In this document: positions 5,716 to 18,161 of the stretch, piece after piece
Position numbering within the stretch: the first letter of the stretch is position 1
How the letters are laid out: each line of letters begins with the position of its first letter
Virus record (IMG/VR): IMGVR_UViG_3300032893_000005
Location: 62,001-126,000 of that record
Length of the DNA: 64,000 bases
Source: a virus
Strand: one strand, 5' to 3'
The notes under the pieces: model-generated
What the model saw: the letters and a program-made list of their open reading frames with translations, nothing else
Databases searched by the model: none
What the model was told of the DNA's origin: nothing
Translations under genes and position numbers: made by a program

Positions 5716-7663
5716 CTTATCAACTGAGATCATAAAAGTTCAAAACCAGACCTTCTCGTTCAACCAGAAGTATCCGTTCCAGGTCGGCGAGCGAGAGAAG
5801 TTCACTGCCTTCGGTAACAAGAAGCGCTTGGTCATCATGTTCAGGGAGCCTTGGTACGTTCTTCCTAACGGCCAGTGGTACACCAGGACTGACGCATCAG
5901 GATTCTCGATAAGCAAGTCTAGGGTCAAGTCGGACGGCGCTGCGCTCAGTCAGCGCCTGATGCGCCACTCTGCAGAAGTCACGGGCGTATGCTTCGCGGT
6001 AGGCTGTGGCGTGCTCATGCGCGTCGGGAATGCCCATCACCCAGACGGCATCACGCAGAACTGGTGGGACCAAGATCCGTTCTCCCTCAAGTTCTGGAAC
6101 GAAGCATCACGCCGGAACATGGGCGAGGCCATCGAAGTACAGTTCAACCTCGGCGAGAGGAAGATCTGGGTCAAGAACCCGCTAGAGATCGAGCACTTCA
6201 TCTCCCGCAAGGAGAAGGGCGACAGCGACATCCAGCAACTCCTGGTTGAGTGGGGTATGTGGGCCGGGATGTGTGATTCGCAGCCCCAGTACGGCTCGTA
6301 CCGTAGAGAAGATGCCATATCTTACTCTGGCCTGTCTCGTCAGTTAGCTGGAGAAGCTCCAGCCGAGGACTCTGTTGTCAAGAACGACATGCGAATCTTG
6401 CACGTCATAAAGAAGGTCTTCTACCCCGGCGTCTCGCAGGTTCAGGGTAAGGCCGAGCACGGCGAGTGGGGAGCACAGGCTCTTCGCTACGTGGCTGACG
6501 TCTCAGACCTAAGGAAGCGGACCCTCTACAAGATCGCCAGCATTGGTTCCCTAGTCGAGAAGATAACTGGACGTCGTCCTAAGACGCTCGTAAATGCCTT
6601 CGGCGAGAATCTTCACACTGTCCTTGGTGACCCAGCCAGCAGTTACTCCTACGGGAGCCATAAGTCGGGCGTAATCGTCTACATCGATCAGTGGATCAAG
6701 CTCGCCAAAGATCTCATGGACGCCGAAGTACCAATGGAGTACATAGTCCAGATGATCCCATATTTCAAGACTTCGGTCAGCCGCGACGACATAGACTTCC
6801 GTGCGTTCTTCGTGGACATCGTCAAGGAGTTCGGACACGTCAAGGTTCTGGGATGGCTCGAGAGAGATCCCAGCTTGGAAGCTAATACTGTGCCTGCAGA
6901 CGGCGCTGCTGCCCTGGCGCAGGCCCTCGAAGCTGGCGTCTACGGAGGAAGATCCTCTACGCCGCTAGATCACTTAGTCGAAGCCTGTCGCATCTTAAGG
7001 GAGTCTCGCGACAAGCTGACCAAGGCTACTCCGCGACAGCTCAAGGTGTTTCCGAACGGCGTTCAGGCTAGGAGGTACTACAAGACGGCCAAGGAGTTCC
7101 ACGACGACGTGTCCAAGCAGGCTGGTCGGTTCGACGAGCTTGGTCAGTCCATCGTCATCAAGTGGGACGACCGCTGGAAGCACTTGCATGGTATCAGGGC
7201 GGGCGAACTGAGGCTCCTCCTCCCGCGCAGCACTGGAACGGTCACTCGCTGGGGTAAGATGCAGGGGCACTGCATCTCGTCTTACTCTCGAGGGATGCTG
7301 CCTAAGCGCGGCGCTGGAACTAGCATGCCCGCTGGGTACGGAGACTCAAGCCCCGACAAGGAGCGCACCATCCTCGGCGGTGTGTTCAAGGGAACTGAGC
7401 TTCTGTACTGCCTTCGCATAGAGCCTGGACAGCATCCACCCATCAAGCTATCGCGATCGCACGAAGCCCTAGGTGCGGACCCTGACGTAACCGCAAGGGA
7501 AGTTCTCGAAACGAGGCAGGACTTAGACTGGAGTCTCGAAGAGTTACGAGGGAAGCAGAACTGTAACCCGGAAAAGTTGCACGCCCAGCTCATATGTAGT
7601 ATGCTTGAGAAAGCTGGAGTTTACGCCGAGAAGTGGCGTGGATATAACAAACTGGAGGAGTAG
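5708..7663 (+). CDS. Large PcfJ-like protein, function unknown
   Basis: 651 residues from a GTG start that overlaps the HAD gene by 8 bases. The C-terminal third has GKMQGHCISSYSRGM followed by a Thr/Leu-rich strand (ERTILGGVFKG), LYCLRIEP and a GAD segment. This pattern of a conserved Cys-x3-Tyr and following beta-strands recalls PcfJ-type proteins of phages and conjugative elements, whose biochemical role is not known. The N-terminal two thirds are soluble and unrecognised. The assignment rests on the C-terminal pattern only and a profile search could overturn it. Confidence 0.6.
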   Translation: MDNLSTEIIKVQNQTFSFNQKYPFQVGEREKFTAFGNKKRLVIMFREPWYVLPNGQWYTRTDASGFSISKSRVKSDGAALSQRLMRHSAEVTGVCFAVGCGVLMRVGNAHHPDGITQNWWDQDPFSLKFWNEASRRNMGEAIEVQFNLGERKIWVKNPLEIEHFISRKEKGDSDIQQLLVEWGMWAGMCDSQPQYGSYRREDAISYSGLSRQLAGEAPAEDSVVKNDMRILHVIKKVFYPGVSQVQGKAEHGEWGAQALRYVADVSDLRKRTLYKIASIGSLVEKITGRRPKTLVNAFGENLHTVLGDPASSYSYGSHKSGVIVYIDQWIKLAKDLMDAEVPMEYIVQMIPYFKTSVSRDDIDFRAFFVDIVKEFGHVKVLGWLERDPSLEANTVPADGAAALAQALEAGVYGGRSSTPLDHLVEACRILRESRDKLTKATPRQLKVFPNGVQARRYYKTAKEFHDDVSKQAGRFDELGQSIVIKWDDRWKHLHGIRAGELRLLLPRSTGTVTRWGKMQGHCISSYSRGMLPKRGAGTSMPAGYGDSSPDKERTILGGVFKGTELLYCLRIEPGQHPPIKLSRSHEALGADPDVTAREVLETRQDLDWSLEELRGKQNCNPEKLHAQLICSMLEKAGVYAEKWRGYNKLEE

Positions 7664-11574: not shown

Positions 11575-11847
11575 ATGAAGCGCGGTTACGAGATTGGATC
11601 TGGCCGGGTGATCTACCAGATTACTCGCACGAAGACTGAAGACGGTAAGCTCATCATCACTGAGATGCCTGTGTTTCGCGGCAGCCCCGAGAAGCAGGCA
11701 CGCGGCATGATGAAGGCTCATACGCCCGCCGGTGCGCTGGCGATCGTCGACAAGCTCTTGTCGAAGGACACGTTCTGGCTCAACGTCCGAAACTACATCA
11801 TGAACCGAATCAAGGAAGCTGGCGAGAAGAAGGTATCGAATAAATGA
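11575..11847 (+). CDS. Hypothetical protein
   Basis: 90 residues, basic, soluble. AAGGAG precedes the ATG by six bases, and the stop overlaps the next gene as ATGA. No family recognised. The following gene is a mobile HNH endonuclease, so this was probably adjacent to the exonuclease gene at 12,584 before insertion. Confidence 0.75.
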   Translation: MKRGYEIGSGRVIYQITRTKTEDGKLIITEMPVFRGSPEKQARGMMKAHTPAGALAIVDKLLSKDTFWLNVRNYIMNRIKEAGEKKVSNK

Positions 11848-12587
11848 AGAAGTGGAGAAAGTGGACTTCAGAAGAAGTTTCTTTCTTAACTGAAAATTAT
11901 GGTAAGGTGACGACTCAAAGCATAGCATCTGCTCTTGGCAGATGCTGGAGTTCAACTTATGCCAAAGCCGTACTTCTTAAACTTACTAAGCCTAAAGCTC
12001 CTGTTCAGATAGGAGAAAAATTAGGTAGACTTCTTGTCTTGAAAGTTTCTGATAAAAAATCTACGTCTCATGCCTTATTTTTCACTTGTCAGTGTGATTG
12101 CGGGTCTATTGTTGATGTAAGGGCGGCGCAATTAAGGAACGGACGCACAAAATCTTGCGGTTGTTACACTGTCGAACAAACCCAAAGGGCGCTTAGGATG
12201 GCTCCAGGGCAGACTTCATATAGAAGCCTGGAGCGAAGAACTAAAGTGTCTGCACGAAAGAGGAACCTGGAATATAATTTAACTACAGAACAGTTCATGA
12301 GTTTGGTCTGCTTGAGCTGTCACTGGTGCGGTCAAGAACCGGCCCCGTACAATGTATATATGAAGCACGATGGCACCTTCAGGCCAACGAATAGTGTCAC
12401 TATTGGATGGGCTCGACAGCAAACAGTATTTGTGAACGGAATAGACAGAATAGACAGTAGCGTCGGATATACGATAGAAAACTGCGTACCGTGCTGTTCC
12501 ATGTGCAATTTAATGAAACTAGATTATAGCCCAGAGCAATTTTTGAATCAAGTTAAGAAGATCGCTGAACATAAAGGCATTGTATGA
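11844..12587 (+). CDS. HNH homing endonuclease with N-terminal DNA-binding domains
   Basis: 247 residues. The N-terminus is a Myb/SANT-like helix-turn-helix (WTSEEVSFLTENYG), followed by a Cys cluster (CQCDCG, then SCGCY) that should bind zinc. The C-terminal HNH nuclease has CLSCHWCG, a catalytic block NGIDRIDSSVGYTIENC and CCSMCN. Composition is clearly more AT-rich than neighbours, with AAA and TTA codons common here and rare elsewhere. Four-base overlaps on both sides mean the insertion preserved translational coupling. It is a mobile gene, not a phage-essential one. Confidence 0.88.
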   Translation: MKKWRKWTSEEVSFLTENYGKVTTQSIASALGRCWSSTYAKAVLLKLTKPKAPVQIGEKLGRLLVLKVSDKKSTSHALFFTCQCDCGSIVDVRAAQLRNGRTKSCGCYTVEQTQRALRMAPGQTSYRSLERRTKVSARKRNLEYNLTTEQFMSLVCLSCHWCGQEPAPYNVYMKHDGTFRPTNSVTIGWARQQTVFVNGIDRIDSSVGYTIENCVPCCSMCNLMKLDYSPEQFLNQVKKIAEHKGIV

Positions 12588-14826: not shown

Positions 14827-15248
14827 TGCCTAACTCGATCACCGTTCATACTTCTAAAAGCCCTATCGACCCCTTAGCAGATGGAGTGAAGCTAGACGTC
14901 CTGGTCGCGACACACTTCATGGGCGAAGAAGTCTACGAGGAGCGCTGGGGAAAGCAGAAGCAGTACGGCGCCTTCAGCCTGGGGAAGCCTGACTACTACG
15001 ACAGCGCTGGCGAGATGATCCTGTTCAACCCGCTCCCCTCGTACTCGTACGACATGGCCGATGCGTGGAAGGTCGTCGAGAAGCTGCACGAAGTATCTGG
15101 CGTCTGCGGGTTCACTCTTATGTTCGACGACGACCAGTGGATCTGTAAGCTGGGATGGTCCAACGAAGGCGAAGCGTGTAACGGCATGGGAGTTGCCGAC
15201 ACTGCTCCACTGGCGATCTGCAGAGCAGCACTAGACGCGGTGAAGTGA
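14826..15248 (+). CDS. Phage ABA-sandwich-type protein
   Basis: 140 residues starting at ATG 14826, which shares a base with the upstream stop (TGATG). The middle (SYDMADAWKVVEKLHE) and the C-terminal DTAPLAICRAALDA are the hallmark ends of the phage ABA sandwich domain found in many phage genomes with unknown role. The N-terminal 75 residues precede that domain and are not recognised. Confidence 0.75.
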   Translation: MPNSITVHTSKSPIDPLADGVKLDVLVATHFMGEEVYEERWGKQKQYGAFSLGKPDYYDSAGEMILFNPLPSYSYDMADAWKVVEKLHEVSGVCGFTLMFDDDQWICKLGWSNEGEACNGMGVADTAPLAICRAALDAVK

Positions 15249-17329
15249 TGAAGAGGCTTGAGGGCGAGGTCAGGATAGAGGATGGACGCCTCTTGGTTGA
15301 CGCAGAGCCCCACGTCATGTCCAGACTTCGGCCAATCTTCGACAACGCGACCAACTGGTCCAACCGGGGCAAGTACACCCATCGTCCGATCACGTTCCCG
15401 TTCAACATGACTTCGGCCAAGGACATCCTCTGGATCATGCAGAGGTACAACCTGGCCTGCGATCCCCTGACAGCAAGCAAGATCCAAGAGAAGTCTGACG
15501 AGTATGACCGAGTACTCGAGTCTGTGGTCAACGCGGACAAGGATACGACGTACCGCGTTAGTCCAGAAGCCCTTCAGCTCGCTTTAAGCCTCAGAACCCA
15601 CCAAGTTACCTTCAAGAACGCCATCTGGCAGCTCAAGCGCATGCTCCTGTCCGACAAGATGGGCCTCGGGAAAACCCCGTCCGGCATCTCGATGCTTCAG
15701 GAGCCTGAGTCGCGCCCGGCGCTGATCGTGGTACCGCCGCACCTGTGCTCTCAGTGGGAGCGCGAGGTAAATCGGTTCCTACCCGGCGCCAGCACACACG
15801 TCATACGAGGCTTCAAGAACTACGAGCTGCCCCAAGTCGACGTCTTGATCACAGGATACAACCGGCTCCAGCCGTGGCAGGACACACTCCTGGCCGACAA
15901 GAGTCACTTCAAGACCCTGATAGGCGACGAGATCCAGGAACTGAGGCACACCGGCACCGGAAAGCGCGAGATCTTTCGCATCTTGTCAGAGCGCGTCAAG
16001 TTCTGCGCGGGTCTGAGCGGTACGCCGATCTACAACCACGGTGACGAGATCTGGAGTGTCCTGGACGCCATATCCCCTGAGTGCCTAGGAAGCCGCGACG
16101 AGTTCGTGGAAGAGTGGTGCGGCTGGTCCGGCGTAGTCCGGGAGCCTAGCGTCCTCAACCACTACCTGAAGACACGCGGTCTGATGATGCGGAGGACCCC
16201 GGAAGAAGTTGGGCTCCACTTCGGAGAAGCCTCGAAGCACGTCTACACGCTCGACGCCGACATGAAGCAGCTCGAAGCCGTCCAGAACGTCATGAAGATG
16301 CTGGCCTTGAGCGTGCTGAATGGCAACGTGAACGAGCAGAGCGAGTCTTCCCGCGAGTTCGACTGGAAGCTCCGTCACGCCACTGGAGTGGCTAAGGCTA
16401 GGCCTGTGGCCGAGTTCGTAAAGATGATCTGCGACCAGGGCGACAAGGTTCTCCTGGCCGGTTGGCACCGCGACGTCTACGACATCTGGATGAAGGAGCT
16501 GAAGGCCTACAATCCCGTCATGTACACCGGCACCGAGTCTCCCAAGGAGAAGGACAAGGCCGTCAAGGAGTTCGTCGAGGGGAATGCGAAGGTGTTCATC
16601 ATCAGTCTCAGGTCTGGATCTGGCCTCGATGGGCTTCAGAGAGCCTGCGCGACCGCTGTGTTCGGCGAGCTTGACTGGAGCCCACACGTAATGGATCAAG
16701 TCGTAGCCCGCCTTGACCGCGACGGCCAGACGAAGCACGTCCAGGCGTTCTACCTGACGATCGCCGACGGAGCCGACCCGTTCATGATCGAACTCGTAGC
16801 GAAGAAGCGTGACCAGCACGATGGCGTAGTGGAAGGCAAAGACAGCGCCGGTGAGATCTTGGCGTTCGACAGCGGCGGCAAGGAGCGAATCCGAGAGCTT
16901 GCGAAGTCGTACCTCAAGTCGATCGGCGAAGAGGCAGTAGAAGCTATCCAGGAAGTTGGCCTTCAGGCCGACGTAGCCAATGCCCTGAGGTCAGTCCGAG
17001 TCCCGGTAAACACCGAGGAAGAGATGCAGGCTGCACTCCACGACGTTCTTCCTAAGGTTCTGCCGCAAGACGTCAAGATCGAGCGCGAGGTCAAGATCTC
17101 GAAGCGAAGCCGCCTAGACTTCATGGTCACTCGCGGCGAAGAGCGCGTCGCTATCGAGTGTAAGATCGCATCGACCAAGCGGGCCGAGGTCTACCGGCAA
17201 GTTCGCAAGTACGTGGAAGAAGGCAAGGTCACGTCCGTGGTCTTGTTCGCGCCTTGGTTCGGGATACCAACTTTTAAGGTTGACGAGGTGGTCGTGACTG
17301 TGGTTGACACAGCGGCGGCGTCGCTGTAA
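15248..17329 (+). CDS. SNF2-type helicase fused to PD-(D/E)XK nuclease
   Basis: 693 residues from ATG 15248 (TGATG junction). The helicase core is SF2/SNF2-like: Walker A DKMGLGKT at about 137-144, motif Ia LIVVPPHLCSQWERE, motif II GDEIQEL (DEIQ instead of DEAH), motif III GLSGTPI, motif V SGSGLDGLQ and motif VI VARLDRDGQT. The last 100 residues form a separate domain with SRLDFMV...AIECKI, the D...E-x-K pattern of PD-(D/E)XK nucleases (Glu and Lys near 637 and 639). The protein should translocate on DNA and cut it, for use in phage replication, recombination or host DNA attack. Fusion of these two domains in a phage is not one I can name. Its stop codon lies inside the -10 box of the promoter at 17304-17332. 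Confidence 0.85.
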   Translation: MKRLEGEVRIEDGRLLVDAEPHVMSRLRPIFDNATNWSNRGKYTHRPITFPFNMTSAKDILWIMQRYNLACDPLTASKIQEKSDEYDRVLESVVNADKDTTYRVSPEALQLALSLRTHQVTFKNAIWQLKRMLLSDKMGLGKTPSGISMLQEPESRPALIVVPPHLCSQWEREVNRFLPGASTHVIRGFKNYELPQVDVLITGYNRLQPWQDTLLADKSHFKTLIGDEIQELRHTGTGKREIFRILSERVKFCAGLSGTPIYNHGDEIWSVLDAISPECLGSRDEFVEEWCGWSGVVREPSVLNHYLKTRGLMMRRTPEEVGLHFGEASKHVYTLDADMKQLEAVQNVMKMLALSVLNGNVNEQSESSREFDWKLRHATGVAKARPVAEFVKMICDQGDKVLLAGWHRDVYDIWMKELKAYNPVMYTGTESPKEKDKAVKEFVEGNAKVFIISLRSGSGLDGLQRACATAVFGELDWSPHVMDQVVARLDRDGQTKHVQAFYLTIADGADPFMIELVAKKRDQHDGVVEGKDSAGEILAFDSGGKERIRELAKSYLKSIGEEAVEAIQEVGLQADVANALRSVRVPVNTEEEMQAALHDVLPKVLPQDVKIEREVKISKRSRLDFMVTRGEERVAIECKIASTKRAEVYRQVRKYVEEGKVTSVVLFAPWFGIPTFKVDEVVVTVVDTAAASL

Positions 17330-17332
17330 AAT
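17304..17332 (+). promoter_or_regulatory. Strong sigma70-like promoter overlapping the helicase stop codon
   Basis: TTGACA (17304-17309), a 17-base spacer, TAAAAT (17327-17332). The spacer contains the inverted repeat CAGCG...CGCTG, again flush with the -10 box. The TAA of the -10 box is the helicase stop. A transcript would start at about 17338-17339, on or next to the ATG of the following gene, so that message would be leaderless. Confidence 0.75.
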
Positions 17333-17338
17333 CTTCTC

Positions 17339-17827
17339 ATGTATTGGCAAACTCACGGTCACTGTAAAAACTATCACCGCTCAAGAACGTACAACGTCTG
17401 GCACAAGATGCGCCAGCGGTGCTTCAATCCCAAAGATCCCAAGTATCCTAACTATGGCGGCAGAGGTATAACTATTGACCCAAGATGGATGGTATTTGAA
17501 ACTTTCTTAGAAGATATGGGAGTGTGCCCCGACAAACACTCTATAGATCGTATCGATAATAATGCCAACTACTGTAAGGCAAACTGCAAGTGGTCCACTA
17601 ACAAAGAACAGTGCAATAATAGAAGATCTTGTAGATACCTAGAGTTCAACGGTAAGAAGATGACTCACCAACAATGGGCAGAATCTTTAGGTTTTAAGGA
17701 AGGATCTGCCATCGCGTTTAGGTTAAAATCTGGATGGACTATAGAAGAAGCACTCACAACTCGCAAAGGCCAATCGAGAACGTCTCGTTCTGAGACTTGC
17801 GTTGACACAATGTCACAGGCCCTGTAA
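17339..17827 (+). CDS. HNH homing endonuclease
   Basis: 162 residues. Signature blocks in order: RTYNVWHKMRQRCFNP, YPNYGGRGITIDPRW, the catalytic HSIDRIDNNANYCKANCKW and NKEQCNNRR, then a C-terminal helix-turn-helix-like segment (MTHQQWAESLGFKEG) for DNA binding. It is AT-rich relative to the helicase gene. No ribosome-binding site lies before the ATG, which falls at the predicted transcription start of the upstream promoter. The last nine codons (VDTMSQAL and stop) repeat the helicase ending VDTAAASL and stop at the DNA level around a second promoter, a notable sign of how the gene was inserted. Confidence 0.88.
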   Translation: MYWQTHGHCKNYHRSRTYNVWHKMRQRCFNPKDPKYPNYGGRGITIDPRWMVFETFLEDMGVCPDKHSIDRIDNNANYCKANCKWSTNKEQCNNRRSCRYLEFNGKKMTHQQWAESLGFKEGSAIAFRLKSGWTIEEALTTRKGQSRTSRSETCVDTMSQAL

Positions 17828-17830
17828 TCT
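17802..17830 (+). promoter_or_regulatory. Second promoter, at the end of the HNH gene
   Basis: TTGACA (17802-17807), 17 bases, TAATCT (17825-17830), with the inverted repeat ACAGG-C-CCTGT (17815-17825) against the -10 box. It drives the gene at 17859, which has GGAGGG upstream. TTGACACA and CTGTAA are shared exactly with the promoter at 17304. Confidence 0.7.
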
Positions 17831-17858
17831 AACCTTGAAACTTTCTTGGAGGGAAGGC

Positions 17859-18161
17859 ATGAAGAAGGGGCAAGGTAACGACTTAGTCGGATGGACGGCC
17901 CGTGCGCTGCAAGACGTCAAGACGCACAACGGGTTCACGATCGTCAAAGACTCTAAGGTGAAGGTCGTAGACTATCTACACCTCGACAAGCACTACTGTG
18001 TCACCTTGATCGACTCGATCTGGGCGTCGTCGCTCATAGTGAGCGAGAACGACATGATGCTCTGCTTCGACTTTATCTCGTCCGGCCAGCCCGAACGAGT
18101 TCCTGTTCCAAAGTCACTAGCGAAGTGGTATAACGAAACCAAGAAGTACACGGGGTATTAA
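17859..18161 (+). CDS. Hypothetical protein, first gene of a long unit
   Basis: 100 residues from ATG 17859 preceded by TTGGAGGGAAGG. Basic N-terminus, then alternating strands (FTIVKDSKVKVVDYLHL). No recognised family. Position directly behind a strong promoter implies early, abundant expression. Confidence 0.76.
   Translation: MKKGQGNDLVGWTARALQDVKTHNGFTIVKDSKVKVVDYLHLDKHYCVTLIDSIWASSLIVSENDMMLCFDFISSGQPERVPVPKSLAKWYNETKKYTGY

Follow-up and report, generated by a model that had tools for sequence, protein, structure and literature searches.

In the mitochondria of Allomyces (atp6) and Glomus (atp6, atp9, cox2 and nad3), mobile endonuclease ORFs carry a replacement C-terminus: this C-terminus arrives with the inserted endonuclease, and the native one is pushed to the far side of the endonuclease (PMC3630166). 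In phage T4, the promoters that drive segA, segG, mobC and mobD lie in the 3' region of the gene upstream, and at segG/gene 32 the promoter of the downstream gene lies inside the endonuclease gene (PMC2988022). For I-TevI, also in T4, a sequence resembling the endonuclease target lies over the promoter upstream of the ORF (PMC2988022).

Here we describe a 64,000-nt stretch of DNA from an uncultured phage (the window; positions 62,001-126,000 of the IMG/VR virus record IMGVR_UViG_3300032893_000005, which has 154,091 bases), in which a mobile-type HNH endonuclease gene lies between two copies of one junction sequence (Table 1), as a preliminary description of this DNA had recognised. That description took the duplicated unit to be a stop-codon and promoter cassette and was half right: we read the locus as a tail duplication round the HNH gene, in which the left copy makes a good promoter-like site and the right copy a doubtful one. 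On balance, we think it probable that the HNH gene was inserted in the last codons of the helicase gene, with duplication of the junction and a promoter-like left copy.

Judged by analogy, the mobile ORFs of Allomyces and Glomus would be the closest published parallel. Here too the endonuclease ORF stands at the 3' end of the host gene, which appears to be closed by a new C-terminus with its native tail displaced, and the insert keeps the reading frame of the host gene, as it does in Glomus atp6 and nad3. The published cases, however, are from fungal mitochondria and involve LAGLIDADG or GIY-YIG enzymes rather than a phage and an HNH enzyme, and in the window the duplication covers no more than 9 codons and the endonuclease ORF runs in frame into the putatively displaced tail. 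For the free-standing homing endonucleases of T4 the promoter overlaps the end of the upstream gene, as the candidate promoter does in the window (an 11/12 consensus match at 17304-17332), and in both the promoter of the next gene may lie at the 3' coding end of the endonuclease. The two T4 promoters are not, however, described as copies of one cassette over a duplicated gene tail, and the sites in the window are candidates by consensus match, the second of them weak. After the model of the I-TevI operator, it is a possibility that the HNH endonuclease recognises both copies, in which case target-like sequence would overlie the promoter upstream of its ORF; the likeness of the two copies, known from sequence only, is equally explicable as tail duplication alone. 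The locus would be a modest variation on what has been described for phage T4 and fungal mitochondria.

Table 1. Features around the HNH gene, in window coordinates.
Feature	Position	Strand	Remarks
SNF2-type helicase gene with C-terminal PD-(D/E)XK-like domain	15245..17329	+	ends ...VVVTVVDTAAASL-stop
Left copy, GTTGACACA-N12-CTGTAA	17303..17329	+	present 3' end of helicase (VDTAAASL-stop)
Promoter-like site 1, TTGACA-17-TAAAAT	17304..17332	+	11/12 sigma70-like consensus
HNH endonuclease gene, 162 aa	17339..17827	+	PHROG HNH endonuclease
Right copy, GTTGACACA-N12-CTGTAA	17801..17827	+	3' end of HNH ORF (VDTMSQAL-stop); read as displaced helicase tail
Promoter-like site 2, TTGACA-17-TAATCT	17802..17830	+	9/12, weak
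Downstream gene, 100 aa, no family	17859..18161	+	own Shine-Dalgarno GGAGG at ~17848-17852

The two gene ends

Both genes end in V-D-T, five residues and a stop codon, and the spacer that follows TTGACA is 17 bases long in both copies, as had been reported. The helicase 3' end is spelled TTGACACA-GCGGCGGCGTCG-CTGTAA (17304-17329) and that of the HNH gene TTGACACA-ATGTCACAGGCC-CTGTAA (17802-17827). The duplication rests on 9 + 6 identical bases of 27, namely GTTGACACA (9 nt) and CTGTAA, with the 12 bases in the middle alike at 4/12 positions, which is chance level; a profile of the relatives' helicase tails recognises both ends. From start to start the copies are 498 bases (3 x 166) apart. The helicase and HNH ORFs are in the same frame, and only TAA AAT CTT CTC stands between them before the HNH ATG. 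The G+C content of the insert is 43%, compared to 59% for the helicase gene.

The helicase matched SNF2-rel_dom in Pfam (E 1.6e-24) and DNA helicase in PHROG (1e-80), and all of the aligned helicase C-terminal domains (8/8) matched PDDEXK_4. In an AlphaFold2 model of the C-terminal domain (pLDDT 87.6), the last strand, VVVTVVD, is followed by a short loose tail. Nine independent relatives of the helicase without the HNH gene (L001, L002, L003, L004, L008, L010, L011, L104 and L107) have a protein identity of ~46-65% (43% over the matched part for L107) and keep the C-terminal domain. In seven of the nine, the helicase ends with V/I-D, six residues and a stop (VDTTVANV, VDPSLTAL, VDFSAAAL, IDTNINSI, VDTSINSI, VDWAKAKI and VDTCLSAI), and in L010 and L104 it extends a few residues beyond this end. 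These relatives show that V-D-T-x5-stop is the helicase's own conserved C-terminus, just beyond the last strand of the PD-(D/E)XK domain, and the 17-base spacing between TTGACA and TAA follows from the conserved length of this end. As the same ending closes helicases that have no HNH gene beside them, its geometry is set by coding, and we do not regard the duplicated unit as a promoter cassette in the first place. When the profile, built from the helicase tails of the HNH-less relatives only, was scored on 5525 ORF ends, the HNH gene end was outranked among the non-helicase ends by one chance ORF.

Promoter-like sites at the helicase end

A promoter had been proposed in each copy, and the proposal held up better for the left one. 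Counting both strands of the 64 kb, no sigma70-like site other than site 1 reaches 11/12 (0.2 expected), and the -10 of site 1, TAAAAT, matches the consensus at 5/6 positions. When the same peptide was re-encoded with phage codons, keeping the real bases after the stop, 11/12 was reached in 0.07% of trials (P ~7e-4), and therefore coding alone does not account for site 1. The HNH ATG (A = 17339) starts 7 bases past the -10, where transcription would start, and no Shine-Dalgarno was found at this start. Placed in this way, site 1 would probably suit a leaderless HNH message, as the preliminary description had it for the original promoter; we judge its promoter activity from the consensus match.

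The right-hand site fared less well. Site 2 has a perfect -35 but a poor -10 (TAATCT, 3/6), which fails the consensus scan, and a score of at least 9/12 was obtained in 14% of trials when that tail was re-encoded in the same way. It could at best give weak support to the downstream gene, and the idea that the insertion leaves a promoter in front of the gene at 17859 is doubtful. The Shine-Dalgarno of that gene, GGAGG, lies outside the repeated stretch, and a search for relatives of the gene in IMG/VR and phage records found none. TTGACA is not enriched in the window (30 found, 32.5 expected). Outside the hexamers the copies have letters in common (a G ahead of TTGACA, CA behind it and CTG ahead of TAA), and within the -10 they differ; thus, a coding tail fits better than a promoter cassette.

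In the HNH-less relatives, the region of the helicase stop gave higher sigma70-like scores than other gene ends of the same loci (mean z 1.34, P ~1e-4). The best promoter-like sites at the relatives' helicase ends were found in L008, L107, L004 and L002, and their positions vary: TTGACA-17-TATTGT overlaps the helicase stop in L008 (8034-8062), TTGACA-17-TAATAT lies just past it in L107 (3277-3330; also in L108 and L109), and TTGACG-18-TATTCT is at the helicase end in L002 (7041-7070). It is plausible that a promoter at the helicase end is an old feature of this operon boundary, with a drifting position. Downstream of the helicase in L001 (7103-7165) are two near-palindromes, TTTATGCGTATAAA, ~45 bases apart, which might serve that phage as operators or promoter elements.

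Proposed insertion and alternative explanations

How might the present arrangement have arisen? In the explanation that we favour, a free-standing, intronless homing-type HNH gene would have entered the last helicase codons, just past the final beta strand of the domain, leaving two junction copies, GTTGACACA...CTGTAA. The left copy would serve as the helicase C-terminus (VDTAAASL-stop), and the right copy, most likely the original tail, would now close the HNH frame as VDTMSQAL-stop. We consider the right copy to be probably the native one, since the downstream gene's old leader and ribosome site adjoin it. The empty site would then have read GTGGTTGACACAATGTCACAGGCCCTGTAATCTAACCTTG, or ...GTTGACACAGCGGCGGCGTCGCTGTAATCTAACC if the left copy were native. 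With a helicase tail that overlaps a sigma70-like promoter, the left copy would fire transcription exactly at the HNH start codon and yield the leaderless message. The 9-base GTTGACACA could be a target duplication, a repair microhomology, or a piece of a replacement tail borne by the element.

Searches of the fetched loci with HNH models found none beside this helicase, and genes of this HNH family were absent from 8 of the relatives' records. The HNH gene is absent after the helicase in all nine relatives, but these are ~46-65% identical and have unrelated DNA downstream; the closest helicase relatives found by DNA and helicase searches have 57-65% protein identity. Searches of IMG/VR, GTDB genomes and phage records yielded no empty-site relative alignable at the junction, and no helicase in IMG/VR ended exactly in VDTMSQAL-stop.

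If the insertion explanation is right, the locus is a compact phage example of a selfish nuclease gene entering an essential-looking gene harmlessly. The newcomer would have landed past the last structural element, the host gene would have been given a tail of the usual length, and an overlapping promoter would have been available to the newcomer. This would link the displaced C-termini of fungal mitochondria to the borrowed promoters of T4, and would suggest that C-terminal tails common to unrelated neighbouring genes could serve to trace gene insertions. It also calls for caution, as a repeat at gene ends that looks like a promoter can in fact be a conserved protein end.

The likeness of the tails might instead be a coincidence, the HNH gene merely lying downstream of the helicase and its C-terminal extension ending in VDTMSQAL by chance. 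We regard this as unlikely. The two tails have an identical run of 9 nt, are identical at 19/27 positions, and form the top-scoring pair among 4095 gene-end pairs in the window, where one other pair ties. None of 1127 gene tails from other loci matched either tail equally well and, among 87 HNH-family genes with an upstream ORF on the same strand, an in-register tail copy was present in the window's case only and in none of the other 86. V-D-T spelled as GTT-GAC-ACA has a probability of 1.4% under the phage's own codon usage, under which two V-D-T spellings coincide 5% of the time; so rare a spelling implies that the copies have DNA in common, beyond the peptide. Chance, on the other hand, would agree with the variable length of the C-terminal extensions of HNH homologues, with the single non-helicase ORF that outscores the HNH tail against the helicase profile, and with how often neighbours pass a looser threshold (a 9-nt run and 17/27 identical). 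Adjacent gene pairs did so in 6/1522 cases (0.39%) in all fetched loci, compared to 3/4351 (0.07%) for pairs two to eight genes apart (Fisher P 0.012), with gene models that were mechanical ORF choices. At this rate of ~0.4% among adjacent pairs, one instance per 64-kb window is therefore not astonishing. The sequence comparisons put the tail likeness moderately above chance, and by the same comparisons such a tail pair is rare, though not unique.

It is also unlikely, in our view, that a promoter cassette was duplicated, that is, that the endonuclease divided a promoter overlapping the helicase stop, with a working copy now on either side to drive the HNH gene and the downstream gene. This would accommodate a left site that is the window's single best (11/12) and that coding alone does not explain (P 7e-4), the recurrence of such sites round the end of the helicase in L002, L004, L008 and L107, the perfect -35 that site 2 retains at 17-nt spacing, and the same logic in T4 (PMC2988022). 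In the relatives, however, it is the peptide end and not the promoter position that is conserved, the -10 of site 2 matches at 3/6 positions and coding would give the site's total in 14% of cases, and the identity of the copies lies partly outside the hexamers and their mismatch partly inside. Very improbable is a spliced or recoded element in the helicase, be it a group I intron ORF, an intein, or an in-frame HNH domain reached by readthrough of the TAA. The insert of 498 bp is a multiple of three (3 x 166), with the TAA at 17327-17329 as the only break in the frame, and there is a precedent in phage methylases, where an in-frame-readable HNH insertion without splicing is known (PMC11855218). 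Yet the helicase already ends at its normal length (VD+6) at the TAA, Rfam gave no intron at E up to 1, the HNH ORF takes 489 of the 498 bp, so that a ribozyme would not fit beside it, and intein ends were not seen. A group I intron, another known RNA element (Rfam, none at E up to 1) and an intein were rejected, the ORF filling the insert.

The HNH protein and other common tails

The HNH protein belongs to the phage HNH endonuclease family PHROG 3377/374 (E 6e-47 and 1e-42), and the invariant columns and catalytic-motif residues of the alignment are kept. It is 38-51% identical to its homologues and has in common with them the HNH core, DRID...Y..NC.W...Q..N, and the C-terminal motif TxxxWA..xG...RL..GW..E.AL. 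In about half of these homologues the N-terminal region is longer and carries an SCGC motif; the 162-aa copy in the window lacks this region and may have been truncated at the insertion boundary. None of the homologues examined ends in the tail of its own upstream gene, unlike the HNH protein of the window. In the structure model, the core has a pLDDT >90 and the fold ends near residue 144, while residues 145-162 are of low confidence and have no predicted structure. The right tail copy is thereby predicted to be a disordered appendage on the HNH protein. Homologues of the protein often stop 3-10 residues beyond the last motif, although their extensions vary. A PDB sequence search with the protein gave one weak, uninformative match only. 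The gene is single-copy, no second copy being found in the 154-kb record. At 11844-12587, the window has a second nuclease-like gene, with a D5-like N-terminal match, a segment like other HNH proteins and an endonuclease VII-type C-terminus (PHROGs).

Common tails were also observed at other loci. In L015, adjacent unrelated genes (6173-6634 and 6631-6906) both end in CDEERGRK-stop, and in L152 adjacent unrelated genes (1341-1688 and 1685-2080) both end in AKKRELGL-stop; in each pair the DNA differs only synonymously. The first of the L152 genes (1341-1688) encodes an HNH-like protein. Going by their sequences, the common tails of L015 and L152 may be what remains of insertions in which a gene tail was duplicated. 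A wider and more speculative proposal, to which we give only an outside chance, is that tail-duplicating insertion is recurrent in phages, with the end of the upstream gene duplicated round the newcomer so that all three genes stay expressed, and that the window's HNH gene, L015 and L152 are instances. The duplicated end would then hold the stop codon together with promoter or ribosome signals for the next gene.

Another locus, L008, has a cluster of repeated gene tails. Three of its genes (299-529, 690-1136 and 1133-1351) end in RKESSK-stop, RKESAK-stop and REKSSK-stop, with identical runs of up to 13 bases, and a copy of CCCGGAAAGA also lies between the first two.
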